DNA from: Torymus aiolomorphi
Lineage: Eukaryota; Arthropoda; Insecta; Hymenoptera; Torymidae
NCBI GenBank assembly: GCA_036365515.1
Contig: CM070877.1
Coordinates: 67,938,022 to 68,002,021, forward strand
Reading direction: 5' to 3'
Length of the DNA: 64,000 nt
In this document: positions 1 through 64,000 of the stretch, piece after piece
How positions within the stretch are numbered: position 1 is the stretch's first letter
Layout of the letters: the number at the start of each line of letters is the position of its first letter
Position numbers and translations under genes: made by a program
Notes under the pieces: model-generated
Database searches by the model: none
What the model saw: only the letters and a program-made list of their open reading frames with translations
Told to the model about the DNA's origin: nothing

Positions 1-767
1 GGCGCTGGTACGGAACGACAAAAGGTTTCCAGCAGCGGCTAATAGCGGAGGCTAATAACCGCACCCAGGGGGAAGGGGAGGCCGTGAGGGACTACATAAC
101 GTGCCTCATAGCGATCAATCGAAAGATAGCGCCTCCCCCCAAGATTGAGCAACAGCTGGATCAACTCCACCGGAACCTCCGACCACAGCTGCAAGCCATG
201 GTTCGGAGGACAGACTTCCAGTCGGTAGAGGGTCTGTTAGAGCTTGCGGTGGAGGCGGAGCAGACTCTGGAAAATTCCAGAACTTATAGGCCCCCTCCAC
301 AGCCAGCGACGACGCTGCTGCCGGAGATGGCTTATAAGCCGCCCCCTAAAGCCGACCCGCAGAGGAAGCCCAAGGCAGACGCCAAGGAGGGCAAAGTAGC
401 TGCTGCGGTCGGCGTGACAGAGCCCAAATTGGAGGAATTGGAGGACATGCTTCGGCGGGTGCTAAAGCAGAGCCTTGCTGAGCTGGCAAGCCCTCGAGCA
501 GAGAACCCATCGAGGCATGCGCCTGGTGGCCCGCGTAGAGGGCGTGGCCATCAGCCGCCTGGGCGAACGGGAGCACAGAGGCCCCCGGCGCCAACTCCGG
601 TGAGCAAGGACGCGACTTCGGGAGGGGACTCTGCGCCGCCTGCCAAACCCCGGGGAGGAACCCCAGGGGAACCGAGGCCGCCGCTGAGTTGTTACTCATG
701 CGGCAAGATCGGCTACATAGCCAAGTATTGCCCTAATTGCTCAGGAAACGGGAAGGGGGGCGATTAG
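1..767 (+). CDS. gag: Ty3/gypsy gag, 5' end outside window
   Basis: The frame is open from base 3 to the TAG at 765-767, so the start lies left of the window. The product is the capsid/nucleocapsid polyprotein of an LTR retrotransposon. The N-terminal part seen here resembles gypsy-type capsid (charged helical sequence with a HRNLRP motif), followed by a Pro/Arg-rich linker. It ends in one zinc knuckle, CYSCGKIGYIAKYC. The usual knuckle is CX2CX4HX4C; here the His position is Tyr, so zinc binding may be lost or weak. It overlaps pol by about 30 bases and is expressed upstream of it. Assignment rests on the knuckle and on the downstream pol. Confidence 0.8.
   Translation, partial: RWYGTTKGFQQRLIAEANNRTQGEGEAVRDYITCLIAINRKIAPPPKIEQQLDQLHRNLRPQLQAMVRRTDFQSVEGLLELAVEAEQTLENSRTYRPPPQPATTLLPEMAYKPPPKADPQRKPKADAKEGKVAAAVGVTEPKLEELEDMLRRVLKQSLAELASPRAENPSRHAPGGPRRGRGHQPPGRTGAQRPPAPTPVSKDATSGGDSAPPAKPRGGTPGEPRPPLSCYSCGKIGYIAKYCPNCSGNGKGGD
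755..761 (+). promoter_or_regulatory. Candidate -1 ribosomal frameshift heptamer GGGGGGC
   Basis: In the gag frame the codons read AAG GGG GGC GAT TAG, which gives the pattern G GGG GGC (X XXY YYZ) two codons before the gag stop. A -1 slip here moves ribosomes exactly into the pol frame, whose open frame starts at 737. Position and phase are seen directly; function is inferred. Confidence 0.55.
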
Positions 768-800
768 AGAGAATCGCCCCCGCCCCAAGTCTCCAGGGAG

Positions 801-830
801 CTCGAGCAATGGTAGTAGACCCACTCGAGC
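801..830 (+). repeat. Copy 1 of a 30-bp motif coding ARAMVVDPLE, near the start of pol
   Basis: This segment is repeated almost exactly three times at the far end of the same pol gene (4145-4174, 4237-4267, 4347-4378). The ends are CTCGAG on both sides, so the copy can fold as a hairpin. Confidence 0.8.
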
Positions 831-3800
831 TAACCCCGGCGGCACTTCGAGTGCCGAGCCCGAACACGACTCCAGTGTGCGAGGACACTGCGGCAGCGTG
901 CGATCTCCGTCCGGCCTCCGGGGAGTCAGATGCTCACCCGCTTCCCGACCGAGGAGAAGCTTCCGTCGGCCAACCAACCAACGCAGAGACGCGCTCGTGG
1001 GTTCGAATTGAGGTGGGTGAGTTCAACCTCCGAGCGTTGTTGGATTCGGGAGCATCCACTACGGTGATGGGCACCGTCGGGCTCCAACTGGCCACAGCAC
1101 TCGGGAAAGAGTTCGTAGCGTCCGAGAAGCAAGGTGCTAGGCTTGCGGATGGTAGCCGCAGCCCCTTGCTAGGCCACGTGTTCCTTCCGATCACCGTGGG
1201 TGGGCTTACTCGCGAAATTCGAGTCGCCATTATGCCCCAGCTCGATGCAGGCTGCTACTTAGGGGTCAACTTTGTACGTGCGTTTAGGGCCGTACTTGAC
1301 CCGGATACGGACAGGCTCTTCTGCAAGGACTCAGAAGCCTATGACGAGCTGGAAGTAGCTAGCTTGACCCCCGATCCAAGTACCGTGTTGGCCATCGGGC
1401 TCGAGGACGCTACGGACCTTCAGCGGGCGGAGCTGAAGGAAATGGTAGACGCTATCCTAAGCAAGCTTCCGTCAGGCTTGGGATGCGTAGAGGGCGTGGA
1501 GCATGAGATCACTCTGCGGGACACTCGACCAATCAAGCAAAAGCACTATCCAGTCTCGGACAAGGTGCAAGAAGAGATGCACCGCCAAGTAAAGGAGATG
1601 CTCGAAAAGGGCGTGATCGAGCCCTCACGAAGTGGTTGGTCGAGCCCCATTGTGATGATCCGGAAGAGTGACGGAACACGGCGGTTCTGTGAAGACCTGC
1701 GCAAGGTGAACGCAGTCACGGAACCAGACGCCTATCCCCTTCCGAATATGCAGGATATTCTACGGAAGTTGAGGAAGGCGAAGTTCATCTCCACGCTCGA
1801 CCTTAAGAGTGCGTACCACCAGATACCTCTGGCGGCGGAAGCGCGACCCATAACAGCCTTTGCGGTCCCCGGGATGGGGTTATACCAATTCCGGCGGATG
1901 CCGTACGGGCTTACAAACGCGCCCGCCACCTTTCAGCGGCTCATAGACCAGGTGCTCGGACCCGAGCTAGAGCCGTACGTCTATGCCTACCTCGACGACA
2001 TTATAATTGTCGCCGAGACATTCAAGAAGAATAAGGAGTGCCTCCGGATGGTGCTAGTATGGCTAGTAGCCGCTGGATTGACGCTTAATGCAGATAAGTG
2101 CGTTTTCTGCAAGCCAGAGGTAGCATACCTGGGTTTCTTGGTTAACCGGGACGGCACGAGGCCGAACCCGGCCAAGATCGAACCAATTAGGGATTACCCG
2201 GTGCTCCAGAACCTGAAGGCACTGCGGAGGTTCCTAGGCACCACCTCGTGGTATCGGAAGTTCATACCGAACTACGCCACCATCGCTGAGCCGCTCACGA
2301 ATCTGACTAAGAAAAACCAAAAGTATGAGTGGCTCGAAGAGCAGCAGCACGCTTTCGATCTGCTGAGAGCGATGGTGATGACCGCTCCGGTGCTGCATCG
2401 ACCTCATCCCGAGGAGTTCTACATCGTGCAGACGGATGCGAGTGATGTGGGCCTAGGCGCAGTGCTACTTCAAGAGTTAGAAGGGCAGGAGAGGGTGATT
2501 GAGTTCGCGAGCCGTGTGCTCACATCGGCGGAACGGAATTATAGCGTTACCGAGCGAGAGTGCCTCGCGGTAGTATGGGCCATCCAAAAGTTCCACCCAT
2601 ACATCGAGTGCTACGAGTTTAAGGTAGTGACAGACCACAGCAGCTTGCGGTGGCTCTGCCAACTGAAAAACCCCACGAGCAGGTTGGCTCGTTGGGCATT
2701 GGAGCTGCAAGGCCATAAGTTCACCGTTGAACACCGCAAAGGCGCCTTGAACCACGTGGCAGACGCCCTCTCTCGTATGTATGAGGATGAGAATGGGCTA
2801 GAAGTGTCCGCGGTGTCGTGGTTCACCGACACCGCGGACACGTGGTATCAGGAGTGGTGCGCCAAGGTCAAAGGGCAGCCCAACAACTACCCCACCAATA
2901 AACTCGTAACAGGCAGTCTCTACCGGTACCGCCCCAACTCAGAGGTAGACTCAACCCTCGGCAACGATGACGATGCCTGGAAGCTGGTAGTACCAGAAGA
3001 ACATCGTCGCGAGGTGTTGCAGGAATGCCACGACGACGCCACCGCTGGACACCTCGGCAGAGAGAAGACATTCGCCAGAGTTGCGCTGCGCTATTACTGG
3101 CCGCGCTACTATGCGGAAACGCAGGAGTACGTACGAAACTGCGAGACGTGCCAGCGCTTCAAGATGGAGCAAAGGGCTCCAGCCGGCCTCATGGGGCGCC
3201 GAGTAATCGACAAACCCTGGCAGGAGACATTATCGGGCCGTTACCTCGAAGCTCCAAAGGTTGCGAGTATATCCTGGTGTTCCAGGATCTCTTTACCAGG
3301 TGGGTGGAGGCCTCCCCCCTACGTAAAGCAATCGCCAAGACGGTGATAGCGGAACTGAGACGGAAGATCTTTCTTCGATTCGGTTGCCCGGAAGTCTTCC
3401 TGTCTGACAACAGCACCGAGTTTAAGAACCATGCCGTGGAAGACTTCCTGCGGGAGCGCGGTGTGCATCACACCCACACTCCCCCCTATCACCCTCAGGC
3501 TAACCCGATAGAACGAGCCAACTGTACCCTAAAGACGATGATCGCTTCCTATCTTAAGGAGCGGCATAGTACATGGGACGAGAAGCTTCCGGAACTTCTC
3601 TTCGCCATGAATACGGCGGAGCAAAGTTCTATCGGGATGAGCCAGGCCCTACTGCTCTATGGGAGACAGCCAGAACCTCGTGGCACGCAACGGAGGATGC
3701 AAGAGGTAGCAGCAGACGCCCCGGCTCAAGAAGAAAGTTTGGCTCACTGGAAGAGGCGAATGGAGGCCCTTCCAGAGTTGCACACGCGTGCCGCTTCGAG

Positions 3801-4140
3801 AGCACGCGCGGCTCAAGAACGCCAAGCCGGCTATTATGACGCCGGCAGGCGCGAGCCAACTTTCAAACCAGGCGACAGAGTGTGGAAGCGTAACCATCCC
3901 CTATCCTCAACCGCCAAGGGCATTGCGGCGAAGCTAGCGCCGAAGTTCGAAGGTCCGTATTAGATTACGGATGCCCTAGAAGAGGTGGTGGCCGCCGAAC
4001 AGCTGAAAAGTTACCACTCGGCTCCGCCAGAATCCGACGAGCCGGAAGGGCCGGTCGACACGGAGACCGCGCCTATGAGCGAGCCCTCCGGCGACGCCCT
4101 CTTGGACGAAACGCTTCCGAGGAGACGCGGGAGGCCCCCG

Positions 4141-33606: not shown

Positions 33607-34307
33607 TGTTACGGGTAGAGGCTTCTAGAGATTAATCACGCTATCGGAAGCGAGCTGCATGTCAGCAGATCGCAGGACATCGAACCTCAACTACAGCTGC
33701 GCATCAGCAGCACGCGGTGTGGAAACTTCCGAAACTCAAGTGCGTGAATGGAAGCGAGCTGCATGTCAGCAGATCGCAGGACACCGAACCTCAACTACAG
33801 CGGCGCGTCAGCAGCACGCGATGTGGGAACTTCCGAAACCCAAGCGCGTGAATGGAAGCGAGCTGCATGTCAGCAGATCGCAGCACATCGAACCCAAGAG
33901 CGAGATGATGAAACTAGAGCGCATCGGACACAGCATCGAATAGCTGACATGATGGCTCGATTGGCAATCAACGAAGTTAGCGATTGACTCCCACCCACGG
34001 ACACTTTGGTACTGGTATAAATACGGTACAGAGCACGTATGAGGAGAGTTCAAGACCATCCAGGAACGAGCGAGGAAGGACGAACAAGGAAGCTGATCTG
34101 CACAAGTGACCCACGAGAGGACGATCGCCAGTCGACCGCGCCGCGCTTTTAAAACACGTTAGGGATATCTCACTCTTATTAACGGAAATAAATATCAATA
34201 CACGCATATAACCCGACTAGTATTTCACTGCATCGCTTCGAGTACAAACTTGGAGCGACCCGAGAACCAGAACCATCCACATCCTCGAATACGTCTCACA
34301 CGTAACA
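33607..34307 (+). mobile_element. 3' LTR of element B
   Basis: It has the same length and ends as 7727-8427, with about 20 differences in 701 positions, mostly transitions. It is followed by the CTTT target duplicate at 34308-34311. Confidence 0.9.
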
Positions 34308-34311
34308 CTTT

Positions 34312-34480
34312 ATAACGTGAAGAAATTCAGAACAATTAATATTTATTTTATTATGTAGTTGATGCCATCCCTTTTCTATAGCGTTGCAAACTAGATATTC
34401 CGGAACATTAGTAAACAAACTAACAACATCAAAGCTAATAAGCTCGTGATCCAACAGGATTTGGATATTATCGATTTATT
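34312..34480 (-). pseudogene. Penelope-like element RT, middle segment
   Basis: The minus strand codes LISFDVVSLFTNVP (RT motif with catalytic Asp), AIEKGWHQLHN and EFLHVI. It joins in frame to the 7115-7726 segment once element B and one CTTT copy are set aside. The left neighbour in the PLE frame is 35186-35395, across the tandem insertion. Confidence 0.8.
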
Positions 34481-34650
34481 AATAATCGAGTTGGTATATC
34501 GACTTTGTATGACTCAATTAAACAAATAAATTTAATTTAGGCAACTACAAAGAAATAAGGAATAAAATACAAAAAAGAATCAAAAAAGGATTTATCTTTC
34601 TTTTTGCTCTCGTCCACCGGATCTGGTGAATGTCCCGAGCATACAAAATA

Positions 34651-34717
34651 AGGTGTTTCGTCCTGGCTACTGGATTGGACTCATCAGAGATGATCCAGTA
34701 GCCATCATCAGACACCT
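34651..34717 (-). ncRNA. Hammerhead ribozyme, copy 1
   Basis: Minus strand: 6-bp stem III (AGGTGT with ACACCT), GTC cleavage triplet at 34713-34711, stem I GATGAT/ATCATC closed by loop GGCTACTGG, core CTGATGA, stem II GTCC/GGAC closed by a 13-base loop containing CCAGTAGCC, and GAAA. All invariant core bases are present. The first stem I pair (1.1-2.1) is T-T in this copy. Confidence 0.85.
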
Positions 34718-34757
34718 GCCACACAGTGTTTGTGCAGCTTACTTATAAGTATAGAGT

Positions 34758-34787
34758 GTTATTTCTCATTTCGAGAAATGACACTCC
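34758..34787. repeat. Hairpin in the hammerhead unit
   Basis: GTGTTATTTCTC and GAGAAATGACAC pair around ATTTC. The hairpin is only in the complete unit and precedes an A run of 20 bases. Confidence 0.6.
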
Positions 34788-35064
34788 ATCTGGTGGTAAA
34801 AAAAAAAAAAAAAAAAATTCTGAGTATGGGTATGTTTCAGTCCATAGCCCCAAATTATTTTATGATAGTTATTATATTCACTCATGTTCGTATTAATAAT
34901 CGGGTTGGTATATCGACTTTGTATGAGTCAATTAAACAAATAAATTTAATTTAGGCAACTAAAAAGAAATAAGGAATAAAAATCAAAAAAGAATCAAAAA
35001 AGGATTTATCTTTCTTTTTGCTCTCGTCCACCGGATCTGGTGAATGTCCCGAGCATACAAAATA

Positions 35065-35131
35065 AGGTGTTTCGTCCTGGCTACTGGATTGAACTCATCA
35101 GTGATGATCCAGTAGCCATCATCAGACACCT
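35065..35131 (-). ncRNA. Hammerhead ribozyme, copy 2
   Basis: It has the same layout as copy 1, with GTC at 35127-35125. Stem I is perfect, TGATGAT/ATCATCA. Stem II has a G-T wobble (GTTC/GGAC). The core CTGATGA...GAAA is intact. Confidence 0.87.
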
Positions 35132-35185
35132 GCCACACAGTGTTTGTGCAGCTTACTTATAAGTATAGTGTATTATCGATTTATT

Positions 35186-35395
35186 CTTTTAGTTTTAAGC
35201 TATTATCGATATGAGAAGCAGGAGTCTTTAGATTTTTTTCTAGAAATTTTGCAAAGAACTTTGATAACGAATTTATAGGAGAATTTATTGTGGAAATGAT
35301 TGGTCTTACGGGGAAACCAGTTTTGTGTATTTTTACCAAACCATAAGCTTTTCAGATATTGAATTTTTGCAAAACTGGGTGCTACTTTTTCCTAT
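35186..35395 (-). pseudogene. Penelope-like element RT, N-proximal segment
   Basis: The minus strand codes YGLVKIHKTGFPVRPIIS..INSP and a KFFAKFLEKNLK helix, the first RT motifs of PLEs (YGLPKIHK type). A stop or shift lies just before YGL. It ends at the 15-bp duplication of the hammerhead element and begins at the edge of TIR transposon 2. Confidence 0.75.
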
Positions 35396-36063: not shown

Positions 36064-36196
36064 GAATTGAAGAGCTCAGGGCAACAAACGGTCAGCTCAC
36101 ATTTCGAGTTGGCCCCTAGATAAACAGTATGAACCGCAAATTCAGGGACTATCTGGAAATGTGAGCTGACCGTTTGTGCCCTGAGTTCTTCAATTT
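36064..36196. repeat. Short foldback inside TIR transposon 2
   Basis: Two arms of about 44 bases, AATTGAAGAGCTCAGGGCA and its inverse, pair around about 42 bases. The left part of the transposase frame ends in it, so it may be a small insertion or local inverted duplication. Confidence 0.6.
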
Positions 36197-37884
36197 AGCC
36201 TTATCCAGTCTTGGTTTTAGTTTCAAGACAGTATCTTCATATGATTCTTTACTGCTATAAAAAACTTTGGTTTCTTTGCAATAATCTTTAGACCAGTTAT
36301 AAAGCTTTTCTGGCGTTAAAATATGATTATTAGAAGAAACTTGTAGACTCGCTCTGCACCTCTTTTTAGGTTGGCGCCTATACCATCGCTTGCACCTTTG
36401 CCGTGGCATAAAAATACCACTCAGCTAGAAGACCAAAATCTTTCTCATGAAAAAGAAGATTTAGAAAATTAAATTTATTTTTAAAATATTGACCTGCTCC
36501 ATCAGTCAAATCATAGACATTTTTTACTATGAATTTAGTTTTGATGTTAGATATGATAACTTTTTGATATTCATAAACGGCAACAGTATCATGGTTTAGA
36601 TTGTCGGAAATCACATCAATGCTTACATGTTTAAGCTCTTCATTTTCTTTATAATACACAACAACTGTAAAAACAGTTGCTTGGTTTTTGTTTCAGTGGA
36701 ACGATTGTGTAGAATTTTGCATAACAAACGCACAATTTTCGGCAAAATGACAACAAACAAGAAATTCTCCTTGTTGAAGGTTGTTTTTTAAGTCACTTAC
36801 AAAAAGTGATTGACTCTTAGCAAAAAAATCGTGAGATTTTAATTTTATCAATTTTTTTCCCAGTATGTCCATAAATTCATGAACATTTACAGTTTTAGAA
36901 GCTACTGTACACCGATCTGTTTGAAACCATGATTCATACTCTATTTGAAAAATATCACTTTCATCAAAACATTCAAGCAAATGTTTACGTAATATGGACA
37001 TATTGGGGCAATCTAAACAGTCATCCAAATAGCATCTATCGTGTGCATCATTACACATAATTGCTTGGATGCAATCGTGGTAGCTTTTAAGAGGCAATCT
37101 AGTATCTTTTGTTAAATTTTCTAGATCCATAGCACTTAGCATGAGCTTTACGTTTTCGTGATGTACACATACGCATTCATTATGCGTACCACTACAACTA
37201 CCATACTACTCAATTGTGTAAATTTAGTAAAACCAATATTAACGTGTTCATTTTCTTTTTTATATGAACTATACAGTTCATTTAAATTACCACGCAGTAA
37301 TCTTTTTTGAACATGTTCTCTTTTACCATTGCTTTGCTTAACAGATATGTAATCTTTTAAACCTGGCATAATTCGGTTTACATCATCTTTTTCATAAAAT
37401 GTTTTCACTGAATTTACAGTTTCAGTTGAAAGTAGTTAGCCACTTTTATTAGCAGGTATTGAAAAAATTCCACTTTTAGCTACTAAATTTTTTGCTTCAC
37501 GAACTTCCCGTTCAGTGCAAGCGAATCTCGCATTAAGTCCCTACGAGATCAAAACTCAGGCGCAAGAGTTAGTAACTGAACTCTCTCTTACTTATTTGTT
37601 GATTCTGAAACTTTTTTCTTAATTTCTTAAAGAACTGCAACACCAGCTTTGTGATACTCATCGTTACACACTATTTTAGCTTTTTTAGCAGAAGCTGGAG
37701 GTAAACTTGATTTATGTTTCTAAATTTGGCATTGACAGTTAGAACAAATTGTTGCTTTTTCTGGTACTAAGGGATATTCACTTCTTAAAAGTGTTGGAAA
37801 GTCGATCAAATCTTTTATTATATATGAAGGGTGATCATTTTTATTTAAAGGATTTATGCATTTTAATTTCCAAGTTGAATCCAT
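36149..37884 (-). pseudogene. Transposase of TIR transposon 2 (same family as transposon 1)
   Basis: Minus strand, ATG at 37884 (MDSTWKLKCINPLNKND). Blocks: a CSNC zinc-type pair (about 37755), PGLKDYISVK and the KRLLRGNLNELY basic block (37380-37250), a CYLDDCLDCP cluster (about 37010-37040), LVCCHFAENCAFV (about 36740, where other copies have DFAEN), DLTDGAGQYFKNK (about 36490-36510) and HEKDFGLLAEW, then YFYATAKV where others have HGKG. Several stops and frame changes, and loss of the first acidic residue (D to H) and of HGKG, make it clearly dead. Confidence 0.65.
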
Positions 37885-44494: not shown

Positions 44495-46850
44495 TTATTC
44501 ATCAAAAATTTCTTTCCAAACAATATTTATGATTTCTTCTTTATTATCTGAATCGTTTTGAATAAATATATTATTTGGATTCCTACATCTAGACAGTGCA
44601 ACATATAATTGTCCATGTGAAAATAATGGTTTTCTAAAATAAATACCTAATGCATCAAAACTTTGTCCTTGTGATTTATTTATCGTCATAGCAAAAGCCA
44701 AGACAATAGGAAATTGTTTTCTATTAACTATAAATGGCAATGAAGACGATTCTGCAGTACTTAATGTTATTCTCGGTATAAAAACGTTATTTCCTGATTT
44801 TTCTCCTGTTATTATTTCAGCTTCTATATTATATTTAAATAGTCTAATTATTTTTAATCGAGTTCCATTGCATAAACCATCATTTATGCTTAAATTTCGT
44901 ATTAACATTACTATCGCATTAATTTTTAGATGTAATTCATGTGGTGGTAAGCCTTCACGAATATTATGCAAGTATTCAATAGGAAAATTTATGTAAATAT
45001 TATCATCTGATAGATCAACACCTTTATATGTTGCGCTATCTATACTATAATAAGTCATTTCATCACTATCGATTAATTTTAATATTTTATTATTTAGAAT
45101 AGTTGAGTCTTCATTATGAGACGTTAAAATAACACTATTTATAGATAAATTATAATTTATATCTTTATATATTTTCAAACAAACATCATCAGTTTTCCAA
45201 CTATTTGGTATTTTAAACGGATTAATTATTCCCTCTCCAATATTTAATAAAAACAAAGCAAATTCCTTATTATTAGAACGAATATTTTTTTTTAAGTAAT
45301 TTATGTTAAAAAGTGGCCAAATATCTGAATATTTTATTGTTTCTTGTATAATCGTACTTCTACAGCCATTTTTAATAACTGGAAGAATTTGTCGAAAATC
45401 TCCTCCTAATATAATTAATTTTCCCCAAAAGCTAAATTTATATTACAAACATCTCTCAATGTTTTATCTACAATGTCTAAAGCTTTTCTTGGTATCATTG
45501 ATGCTTCATCCCAAATTATTGCATCTACTTCGCGTAATTTTTTCTTATCAGATTCTAATTTTAAAAATGCACTTTCGATACTTTCTAAATCTAGAGGTAA
45601 CTTAAATGTTTTATGACTTGTCATCCCTTTTGGTAATAATATTGACGCAATACCAGTCCAAGCCATTGATAAAATTTTTTTTTTTTTTGACAAAAAATAA
45701 AAAATCAATGTTTTATATAAAAATGTTTTACCTGAACCGCCAGGACCATCTATGAAATGAATTTTGCTTTCACTATTTAATAATTTCTCAAAAATATACT
45801 TTTGTTCTGAATTTAATTGAGTATACATGTTAGTAAACATTTCTTTACAATATAAAATATTAGTTTCATTAATGCCATTACATTCCGTTTTTAAGGTTTT
45901 ATTTGGTACAGGTAATCCAAAATCTATACAAGATTTTTCGTTTAATGTTAATATTTCATTTATTTGTATAAGGGCATTGTTAACTTTATCATCTTTAAAA
46001 TCTTCTATGAAAAAGTTTTTAAATTCATTCCAAATATTATTACCATTAATATTTTCAGATAGTAAAAACCAAGCAAAAAATTGACGTAGCTGATATCCTA
46101 ACATAACATCACAAGCTTCTTTAAAAATATTTTTAATTTGTAAATCATCATCAACTAAACCCATTTTTATTGCTGTTTCTCTATATGTGTTGTATGTACA
46201 ATTTTCATACGTTCGTAAATCTTGAAAGGAAGTTGCACCTTTAACACGATTCAAAATTAACTTTAAGTGAAATCGTTCAATATTCTTCGGAGAAACAATA
46301 TTTAAACGACCTATGGTATAATGTTCTAGATTTCGTTTTCGTTTTATCCAACATTTATTCTCGAAGTTGTAATATTTAGGTATATTAACATATTTTATAT
46401 TTTTTGCATAATCATCTTTTGTATTTAATTTAAACCATGCTGTTAATGTTGTTTTCCAATTTTGTAACGCTTTGGTCTCGTTATTTTCTTCAAAAATAAT
46501 TCGTTGTTGATTTTCTGTATGAACTGATAGACTTATCACTGTATGTCTTCTACCACATAAAGCAAATGTTTGTAATCGCCAAGCTGCTTCCATCGGACTT
46601 AAATATCTTCCATCAACAAATTGAGTAATTTCGTCATATATAATATCATCATTTCTATCATCAACTTTTTTTAATTTACACAATGCTCTATCTCCACCTT
46701 TATGTATGTAATCAAATATATATTTTATACTTTGAATACTGGCGCAATATTCTACATTAATATGACATTTATATTTTTTTAGTAAGAAGCTATTATAAGG
46801 TATTACCATAGAATTATCTACTGGAATTAGTTGATTATTGTTTTTAGCTT
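44495..46850 (-). pseudogene. Helitron replicase-helicase, helicase half
   Basis: Minus strand. The frame 46809-45415 codes the region after Rep (PYNSFLLKKYKCHINVEYC, KYIFDYIHKGGDRA) and the start of a PIF1-like helicase: Walker A GPGGSGKTFLYKT (about 45735-45760) and Walker B-type DAIIWDEASMIP (about 45490-45520). A one-base shift in the GGGGAAAA run at about 45420 continues it as GGDFRQILPV. The last frame (45256-44495) has motifs NGTRLKIIRLF, NKSQGQSFD and YVALSRCRN. The nicking Rep domain is lost by truncation, so it is not autonomous. Confidence 0.88.
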
Positions 46851-62302: not shown

Positions 62303-64000
62303 ATGGTAAAATCATTTATAGACACTACTCCACCGCTGATTCCGTCTCAAAACGATAATTTTCTAACAGCTACATCTACTGGACAAGTATTGTTCGGGCC
62401 TTGCCTGGGAAGAGTGAACGATCTCGAATGGCACCTTACAAAATCTGTCATTGCAGTTTACAATGCAGTCGCTCCGCTCAAAACCATCACGCTCTCATCG
62501 AAGAGCAAGCCGTGGGTCACATCTGCAATACGAGCCCTCATGCGTAAACGTGACACAGCGTACAAAATTGCACGTTACACAGAGCTACCAAGAGATCACG
62601 AACGATTCTGTGCGCTAAGGTCGCTAGTATGCAATTCGCTTGATACCGCAAACATAAATTTTTAGCAGACAAACTAGAACACGCTACAGATGCAAAAGTC
62701 AAATGGAAGGTACTAAAGGGAATGCGGGTAACCGGATCGAGTCTTCCGTCGCCACTCCTCTACTTCACAGCAGAGGACCGATTATGCCCACTATGCGGCC
62801 ATAGTCAACAGGCACCCGCCTCTTTGCGAGGAAGACTTTCAACACGCACGTGATAATCACCTCAATCCAAACATGCCTCACCACTTCGACTTCAGGCCGG
62901 TCACTAATACCGACATCATAGAAGTACTCCGTTGTTCCTCTTCTAAGACCTCTGGAGTAGACGGGTTCTCTTCCGCTATGCTAACAATAGTAGCTCCCGC
63001 CCTGATCAAACCATTATTGGCGCTCTGTAACGTGTCCCTTGCAAACGCTGTTTTTCCCGAGGAATTGAAAAAGGCTAAAATCTTGCCCTTATCCAAAATA
63101 AAAACGCCTCGATCACCGTCAGACACAAGGCCCATAGCGCAGTTATCTGAATGCTCCAAAATTCTGGAGCGCATAGTACACGATCAGCTTCTTTCTTACC
63201 TTAAAACGCACAGACTCTTGCAGCCGAAGCAAGCTGGATACCGTAGGGGACACAGCACGCAGACGGCTCTGCTTGGGGTCCTTGATGACGTGAGGCAGGC
63301 TATCGATAATGGCAAGCTAATCTTTCTAATACTGTTTGACTTCTCGAAGGCTTTCGACTACCTACGCCATGATCTCCTGCTGAAGAAACTGAGAGCCCTC
63401 AACGTAACTGACAGACCGCTTCGGTGGTTCTTCAGTTACTTAGCTAATCGACTTCAAGTTGTGATTGACTCGAACGGATCTGTATCGGATTGGTTACGTG
63501 CGTCGTCGGGAGTGCCGCAGGGTAGCGTATTAGATCCGCTTTTATTCTCAGTCTACATTAATGATCTTCCGAAGGCGCTGCTCTATGCTAAACTAATGAT
63601 ATTTGCTGACGACACTCAATTCTACCTTGATTTCTTTCCGGATGACAAACACGACGCCATCACCTTGATAAACCGTGATGCCCAAGCTGTCGCAGATTAG
63701 GCTAGAATCAATGGTCTAATACTAAATCATTCTAAAACCAATGTAATGTTAATTGGAAGTTACATCTACACCTCAAGGGTTGATCTCGCATCACTCCCGA
63801 AAATCGTCATAGATAATCACCCGCTGGAGTATGTGTCCGAAGCAAAGAATCTCGGAGCGATCATAACCCCCACCCTCAACTGGAAGAATCACACAAAGCT
63901 GGTCATGCGAGAAGTTTACGCCTCCTTATATACCCTACGATTCTATCGCCACGCGCTGGTAAAGAAATTAAGGAAAAGCCTCATGGAAAGCTTAGTCTTT
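62303..64000 (+). pseudogene. Non-LTR retrotransposon reverse transcriptase (CR1/Jockey-like), runs off the window
   Basis: The 5' endonuclease is missing. The first block (62303-62665) is the linker between endonuclease and RT (SSKSKPWVTSAIRALMRKRD). After frame damage at 62640-62870 the RT runs from about 62873 with TSGVDGFSSAML, DTRPIAQLSECSKILER, QAGYRRGHSTQTALL, LFDFSKAFD, SSGVPQGSVLDPLLF and the catalytic FADDTQFYL (about 63600-63625). A TAG at 63698-63700 replaces an expected Trp; the frame continues (RINGLILNHSKTNVM) to the window end. The class is judged by motif style only. Confidence 0.88.

Follow-up and report, generated by a model that had tools for sequence, protein, structure and literature searches.

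A type III hammerhead retrozyme-like element of Torymus aiolomorphi whose head-to-head insertions point to Penelope-type reverse transcription from two adjacent start sites

A small non-coding element with a hammerhead ribozyme in each tandem unit is dispersed in the genome of Torymus aiolomorphi, mostly as two inverted arms joined head to head between target-site duplications (TSDs). The anatomy of the insertions shows that two strands were copied from two distinct starts, that the target was duplicated, that the arms were joined head to head and that several units were read through. We consider it likely that a Penelope-type machinery nicks the target on both strands and that each nicked strand then primes reverse transcription at one of two neighbouring starts on a single RNA, which is probably circular. 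An enzyme of the Penelope type is supported by comparison with Penelope-like elements (PLEs) and would be the probable agent, and we infer the single RNA per insertion, its circular form and its processing by the hammerhead. Such insertions bear both on who moves animal retrozymes and on how Penelope elements insert, and they record the two strands, the two starts and the shared variants.

The copy in the window and its ribozyme

The copy from which we started lies in the window, i.e. the whole stretch of 64,000 nucleotides analysed here, and is a one-armed insertion of a non-autonomous retrozyme-like element within a degenerate Penelope-like reverse transcriptase (RT) fragment (Table 1). A repeat search of the window gave a direct repeat at 34477-34762 and 34891-35176 (286 nt, 97% identity, spacing 414), and the two flanking copies of the duplication are identical, in agreement with the 414-bp unit present about 1.7 times and the 15-bp duplication that a sequence-only reading had reported. 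The match of the second unit extends 6 nt into the right duplication through a microhomology, TATTAT. That reading had also called the element non-coding. The longest stop-to-stop frame inside it has 86 aa, so there is no obvious coding, and with no frame above this length the element does not carry the RT plus GIY-YIG endonuclease by which a PLE is recognized.

Table 1. Features of the window copy (q1 is window position 34481; the RNA sense is the minus strand)
Feature	Position	Strand	Basis or remark
Element insertion	34481..35170	-	414-bp unit x1.7 between 15-bp target duplications
Left target-site duplication, TATTATCGATTTATT	34466..34480	.	Exact repeat and flank-pair comparison
Right target-site duplication, TATTATCGATTTATT	35171..35185	.	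15 bp, 100% identical to left copy
Unit 1, 414 bp, q1-q414	34481..34894	-	Repeat comparison
Unit 2, truncated at q276-282 (5' side of RNA sense)	34895..35170	-	Repeat/unit alignment
Putative RT start site S1, AATAATCGAG on plus strand	34481..34490	-	End used by the window insertion; internal copy at 34895
Putative RT start site S2, q372-381	34852..34861	-	Other end of two-armed relatives; not an end in the window copy
'Tail' of ~39 nt, S2 to S1	34856..34894	-	ATG 9 nt 3' of S1 (sense)
Ribozyme module, q95-q321	34575..34801	-	~93-95% identical to family B; start module unrelated
Hairpin, q126-q160	34606..34640	-	Excess of inner arm ends at the base; window picked post hoc
Type III hammerhead, unit 1	34650..34718	-	Hammerhead_3 RF00008, model 1-54, 34.1 bits, E 2.3e-5; predicted cut 34710/34711
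Type III hammerhead, unit 2	35064..35132	-	Hammerhead_3 RF00008, model 1-54, 35.2 bits, E 1.1e-5; predicted cut 35124/35125
Host PLE RT fragment, downstream part (..LISFDVVSLFTNVP..)	34323..34466	-	Joined-flank frame; tblastn; family by motif
Host PLE RT fragment, upstream part (KAYGLVKIHKTGFPVRP..), degenerate	35184..35351	-	Joined-flank frame; tblastn

When the flanks are joined at the duplication, they form a single minus-strand frame with the RT-like motifs KAYGLVKIHKTGFPVRPIIS... and DHELISFDVVSLFTNVP and one stop near the site. From these motifs we take the host fragment to be a Penelope-type RT; its short pieces gave no match in Pfam or in the PDB sequences. Using the two pieces as tblastn queries, only the window locus (L048) matches among the first 40 genomic loci compared. 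The unit is thus not tied to that PLE coding sequence, and the expectation that it would be found without PLE coding sequence elsewhere holds among these loci. For the same reason the nesting inside the PLE fragment looks incidental.

Several other features were observed in the window. Close to the element are a 104-bp tandem repeat of ~2.4 copies (33646-33894) and, at 36065-36195, an imperfect palindrome, its arm pieces measuring 34 and 19 bp. A frame of 170 aa at 36693-37205 has nine relatives at E 6e-31 or better in a large protein set. Pfam finds the protease, RT, RNase H and integrase domains of an LTR-type pol in two frames at 740-3960, an RT domain (RVT_1) at 62735-63697, and a PIF1-like helicase in two parts at 44498-46848, which we guess to come from a Helitron.

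The hammerheads are best described as type III. The whole window gives no Rfam match at the gathering threshold; the two hammerheads come from a search of 901 nt at a permissive threshold, with both scores below the curated 48.5 bits, and the third-ranked match (E 0.25) is far behind both. The predicted cuts fall between q230 and q231 and are one unit apart, so that the two minus-strand hammerheads of the sequence-only reading are recovered, at these sub-threshold scores, as type III. A hammerhead can be drawn in both units with the core, an open stem III of 6 bp, a stem II of 4 bp and a stem I; unit 1 has a mismatch beside the cut in stem I, and unit 2 has a wobble pair in stem II. The type III model is matched end to end and stem III is the open stem, which is not the type I arrangement, and we therefore call the element 'retrozyme-like, type III', outside the described type I group. 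Rfam also finds Hammerhead_3 in six of the seven relatives searched (31.6-38.1 bits), the seventh, L042, having none, and all three tested core strings are intact in 53 of the 70 units of the first locus set.

The fold of the ribozyme could be read in two ways. A stretch of 9-10 nt in loop 1 is complementary to loop 2, and the same loop letters also pair as a 12-bp hairpin that masks the ribozyme core. This hairpin is the minimum-energy fold in the two units (-32.3 and -30.2 kcal/mol), as compared with -15.0 and -13.2 kcal/mol for the hammerhead fold calculated with the loop-loop pairs excluded, and the 414-nt RNA is more folded than shuffled sequences (z -5.7). On these predicted folds the loops may pair in the active fold, or the hairpin may silence the ribozyme.

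The silencing could be extended to a different view of the template, i.e. that the conserved inverted sequence GGCUACUGGAU/AUCCAGUAGCC serves a long hairpin, that the hammerhead cuts briefly or not at all, and that multimeric linear RNA is copied and not circles. We regard this as unlikely, although the minimum-energy fold of the domain is the hairpin and not the hammerhead, cDNAs pass the cut site in complete units, and attenuation by an alternative structure has been reported for the hammerhead of a satellite RNA. The intact core strings in 53 of the 70 units speak against it; the same pairs could form between the loops of the active fold, as in the cleaving type III variants with a loop 1-2 pseudoknot described in the covered part of PMC7936874; and read-through of the cut is equally expected of circles.

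Two-armed insertions with one start of each kind

The genome (1.08 Gb, 21 contigs) contains two families of the element. With the 414-bp unit as the query there were 599 candidate places, 40 of which were scored and gave 138 matches; the family-B unit (341 bp) also gave 138 matches, in 40 scored of 529. We compared 60 loci, i.e. a first set of 40 and a later set of 20, with L057 not used. The first 40 comprise 21 loci of family A, including the window copy, 18 of family B and one third form (L042). Both families share the ribozyme module q95-q321, which hardly varies between them, and have unrelated sequence elsewhere; the units have a GC content of 34% and 37%. Since A and B combine one ribozyme module with unrelated start modules, such elements may be able to swap the part that would recruit the enzyme. 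In family A the ATG after S1 is followed by 22 open codons in 30 of 33 units. The third form, L042:1700-2200, is a single unit with a family-A-like start region and a B-like ribozyme module, and looks like a module recombinant.

These elements are non-coding, dispersed, multicopy and TSD-flanked, with a complete hammerhead in each tandem unit at scores below the Rfam gathering cut-off, which are the traits of retrozymes. The label retrozyme-like in the sequence-only reading was therefore right in kind, with many loci bearing TSDs, but the type III hammerhead and the two-armed architecture of the family differ from what it had described. Its 'tandem dimer' fits the one-armed window copy and not the family, most of which is two-armed.

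Eighteen of the 21 family A loci are two-armed, with plus units on the left, minus units on the right and the ribozyme sense outward; the opposite order was found in none. The one-armed loci of this family are the window copy and L019 (plus arm only) and L021 (minus arm only). Two arms in this order were also found at 27 of the 38 family B loci. L046 of this family has two clusters in minus-plus order, 177 bp apart, and was treated as separate insertions. An arm can have any length from a fraction of a unit to ~5 units (L015, L018).

The apparent TSDs are 10-18 nt long. A TSD score of at least 10 was found for 16 of 21 family A loci vs 7 of 420 mismatched flank pairs, and for 9 of 18 loci of the first B set vs 5 of 306, this control covering the first locus set only. 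One of these nine B hits (L035) was rejected, its repeat being inside the tandem. The 16 two-armed A loci counted below as having TSDs are 15 with scores of at least 10 plus L012, where a nested insertion interrupts the right arm and a TSD of 13 nt is obtained from the true outer end; the nested insertion itself (L012:2663-3102) has inverted ends. The 18 B loci with TSDs score at least 9 under at least one of two end callings. Several B loci have the TSD under one calling only (L029, L033 and L045 under the first, L036 and L037 under the second) because the called ends differ, and the end positions of L036 and L037 were taken from the sequence since the aligner had halted a few nt off.

The two outer ends of an insertion are nearly always different. 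All 16 two-armed A loci with TSDs combine an end at q1-3 (S1) with an end at q372-381 (S2), usually separated by 37-39 nt, and 17 of the 18 such B loci have their ends at b295-313 and b260-269, typically ~36 nt apart. The lone TSD-bearing exception in family B, L033, has the ends S2 and b16. Combining the two families, 33 of the 34 two-armed insertions with TSDs are S1+S2, while S1+S1 or S2+S2 occurs in 0 of 34. Under an independent and equal choice of the two sites, 33 mixed pairs out of 33 would have a chance of ~1e-10. As the start modules of A and B are unrelated, the S1+S2 pattern is shown by two independent start modules.

The two-armed loci without TSDs are less regular. There are two in family A (L020 and L022) and nine in family B (L032, L040, L058, L061, L062, L067, L070, L073 and L076). 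Among these 11, L058, L070 and L073 are mixed, L032 is S1+S1, and all others are internal or unclear at one end or more. L022 (1473-2952) is a palindromic locus without TSD, its symmetric arm ends (q78/q78) lying between long inverted flanks.

Inverted arms with TSDs could in principle have other origins. In the twin priming of LINE-1, priming by the other target strand on the same RNA leaves an inverted segment, and a LINE could thus give inverted 5' segments with TSDs to a SINE-like passenger. We think it very improbable that our element is such a passenger: the second start would be expected at scattered internal sites, while here it is one fixed site ~36-38 nt from the first, and no poly(A) run was found at the element ends inspected. 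Inverted arms with TSDs also resemble foldback elements, but a foldback DNA transposon or a rearranged satellite, instead of a retroelement, is hardly credible for arms that range from less than one to ~5 units, with unlike ends and an apparent TSD varying from 10 to 18 nt.

Variants and junctions of the two arms

The rare variants of an insertion tend to be the same in its two arms. The divergences within arms, between arms and between loci are alike (3.47%, 3.31% and 3.64%), which makes the overall identity uninformative about the template, and we used rare shared variants instead. A variant was considered rare if carried by at most two other loci, and L042, L046, L062, L071 and L076 were excluded from the test. 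Nine of 18 family A loci have a rare variant common to both arms, vs a mean of 1.35 and a maximum of 6 with swapped arms (0 of 2000 swaps); the corresponding numbers for family B are 9 of 24 loci, a mean of 2.46 and a maximum of 7 (0 of 2000), and for the first B set alone 7 of 14 loci, a mean of 2.11 and a maximum of 6. No shared rare variant was found in half of the A loci and 15 of the 24 B loci. The common polymorphic columns give weak support, the observed value being reached by 52 of 1000 shuffles for A and 25 of 1000 for B; column q90, an apparent mutation hotspot, was counted in this test and not in the rare-variant test.

We collected 27 shared rare variants, 19 of which are covered by at least three units of their own locus. 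Eleven of the 19 are present in every covering unit of both arms (one each in L010, L023, L045 and L058, two each in L014 and L024, and three in L068), which is the trace that several rounds on one template sequence would be expected to leave. The other eight are in some units only (two in L015, three in L022, two in L037 and one in L040), and a rearranged block in L015 is confined to the third unit of one arm and to the other arm. Mixed arms were found in L011, L015 and L018; to produce them, the template would have to be multimeric or mixed, or conversion would have to come later, and variants could also have been spread by gene conversion from one arm to the other. In L011 (1930-3098) two variants alternate between the units of one arm and one unit is without ~q124-q324, as though the template had been a dimer and a part of it had been passed over; mixing would also fit the alternation. 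An arm of L027 (1557-2068) jumps from q323 to q162 twice via a 10-nt overlap, creating a 152-bp sub-repeat.

A single RNA would be the most economical template for both arms, since each site is used once and rare variants are common to the two arms. Two-strand priming of the PLE kind could also work with two RNAs, carried by a dimeric particle in which each subunit keeps to its own start site, which we consider possible but doubtful. A PLE protein is a predicted dimer that extends both strands (PMC11167929, in the portion covered), and such a particle accounts for the S1+S2 ends. The shared variants would be expected of two RNAs from a single active locus, and the mixed arms of L011 and L015 fit more than one RNA. 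A symmetric dimer alone, however, does not forbid S1+S1; the loci differ in their variants (between-locus sharing 0.020), so that unrelated RNAs would often give differing arms; and the 11 of 19 testable variants found in all covering units of both arms favour one template sequence.

The positions where the arms meet bear on self-priming, in which the inverted arm is made by copying a single cDNA or antisense transcript that has folded back on itself, a route proposed for head-to-head Penelope copies in the covered part of PMC3846280. It would explain the head-to-head polarity and the variants common to both arms, and the near-equal junctions of L010 and L025 in family A and of L040 and L060 in family B agree with it. 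But it predicts that arms meet at the same unit position, and in 16 of 18 family A junctions they meet more than 5 nt apart. Neither does it predict an S1/S2 pairing, whereas an insertion has S1 at one outer end and S2 at the opposite one, adjoining a TSD copy. We therefore consider self-priming quite improbable. Over the 42 junctions measured, 16 overlap by 1-12 nt, 6 overlap by more, 3 are flush and 17 are gapped.

The inner ends of the arms give no direct trace of cleavage in the genome, as they are not clearly enriched at the cut. Four of 84 inner ends fall 3 nt or less from the cut (2 of 36 vs 0.6 expected, and 2 of 48 vs 1.0 expected), and run-off at the cut, considered as a sign of linear cleaved templates, was rejected since this is not clearly beyond chance. 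Complete units read through the cut site. At the base of the hairpin we counted 6 of 36 inner ends in family A (P 2e-4) and 6 of 48 in family B (P 4e-3), in windows picked post hoc, which makes this pile-up only a lead. Two sub-threshold matches to microRNA precursors in L024 (3230-3336 and 301-398) are perhaps inverted repeats.

Penelope elements, a proposed mechanism and known retrozymes

PLEs with a comparable layout are present in the same genome. The GIY-YIG domain (PF01541) gave at least 120 matches, all above the cut-off, from 150 scored of 4041 candidates. Among the matches listed, 12 of 12 pairs less than 8 kb apart are minus-plus, i.e. outward, so that head-to-head Penelope copies seem common in the genome among these matches. 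We examined one PLE copy, L078, which has inverted arms of 686 bp with 99% identity and a GIY-YIG-type motif. Going outward, one arm ends in ...AATTCTATCA directly at the TSD, and the other runs 38-41 nt further to the other TSD copy, with an ATG 12 nt into this one-arm tail; the exact duplication, (A)TTAATACTTTTA, has 12-13 nt. By eye each arm has a minimal type I hammerhead core, CTGAAGAG-GTTGGC...GCCAAC-GAAAC-GTC, for which Rfam gave no score. There is no convincing sequence match between L078 and families A and B. From its anatomy, this one PLE copy and the non-autonomous elements share the polarity, the TSD and the one-tail rule, and the retrozyme families have the PLE-like traits of head-to-head arms, a TSD and a tail on one arm.

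Published work on PLEs points in the same direction; the papers are cited here for the portions covered. Frangieh and others found that the PLE protein of a lizard (Anolis, Poseidon) cuts and extends both strands with a preference for ATT, and that it starts at two adjacent internal sites bounding the genomic tail, no strand difference in the start site being seen (PMC11167929). Arkhipova and others described Penelope of Adineta vaga with inverted pLTRs placed head to head and an optional tail at one inverted pLTR, and favoured self-priming (PMC3846280). Our insertions agree with the two-strand cutting and extension in vitro of PMC11167929. They share with the PLEs of both papers the head-to-head inverted arms, a tail of 30-40 nt, two-strand cutting and two adjacent internal starts. 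The published PLE TSDs have 8-10 bp in these papers, compared with the 12-13 nt of L078. Unlike our element, PLEs encode an RT and an endonuclease and carry a minimal type I hammerhead. The sequence-only reading had suggested mobilization by PLE machinery from the nesting on the same strand. The mobilization is supported by the head-to-head copies, the two start sites and L078, but the nesting carries little weight.

We propose the following mechanism, which rests on the layout of the insertions and on this comparison. The minus-strand RNA of the element would have a type III hammerhead and a start module with S1 and S2 ~36-38 nt apart, outside the ribozyme module. A Penelope-type RT/GIY-YIG protein would cut both target strands ~10-18 bp apart, and each cut strand would prime reverse transcription, one from S1 and the other from S2. 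Each cDNA would climb the RNA for a fraction of a unit to ~5 units, passing the hammerhead cut site, and the two cDNA ends would then be joined into head-to-head arms between the target duplications. A single RNA, probably circular, would template both arms. In the window copy the S1 strand alone (1.7 units) would have been kept, with its end joined to the other target end via TATTAT.

We tentatively suggest, as plausible though not yet probable, that a single circular RNA captures both cut strands and that two RTs run round the same circle ~36-38 nt apart, each making one arm. One RNA offers each site once, so every proper insertion would have one S1 and one S2 end. If true, this single-circle rule would also account for two general features of Penelope elements, their inverted pLTRs and their 'optional tail'. 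Having one of each start per insertion adds a rule to the work in PMC11167929, where it is not stated in the portion covered. We found no statement of this rule in the covered portions of the PLE and retrozyme literature.

The element resembles several groups of hammerhead-bearing sequences in animals and plants, and it widens the range of retrozyme-like elements to include one whose hammerhead is of type III and has long complementary loops. The animal retrozymes of Cervera and de la Pena (2020) have type I hammerheads, and these authors suggested that PLEs mobilize them (PMC7229834, in part). Like the metazoan non-LTR retrozymes of that paper, ours has small low-GC tandem units (~150-450 bp), a hammerhead and TSDs longer than the 4 bp of plant elements, but theirs is type I and ours type III. 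A two-armed, head-to-head layout with two start sites is the rule here, while the covered main text of PMC7229834 is without the words 'inverted' and 'head-to-head'.

With plant LTR retrozymes (in part from PMC7761336) the element shares the type III hammerhead and the idea of a circular RNA, and, as for plant retrozymes in PMC7229834, its ribozyme may be blocked in a stable fold. In plant LTR retrozymes the TSD has 4 bp and the LTRs enclose a long internal region with a PBS and a PPT. Our element differs from them in its uniform tandem units, which lack such an internal region, and in its longer apparent TSD.

De la Pena and others reported animal type III hammerheads with loop 1-2 pairing (PMC7936874, again in part). 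Our element is like their delta-like RNAs of toad and termite and the sequences of dipteran genomes in having an animal type III hammerhead with Watson-Crick pairing between loops 1 and 2. In the toad and termite hammerheads helix I is longer and includes an additional hairpin, and the loops pair over ~4 nt, against ~9-10 complementary nt here. The termite genomic hammerheads are isolated motifs in that paper, whereas here the hammerhead is part of a mobile tandem element.
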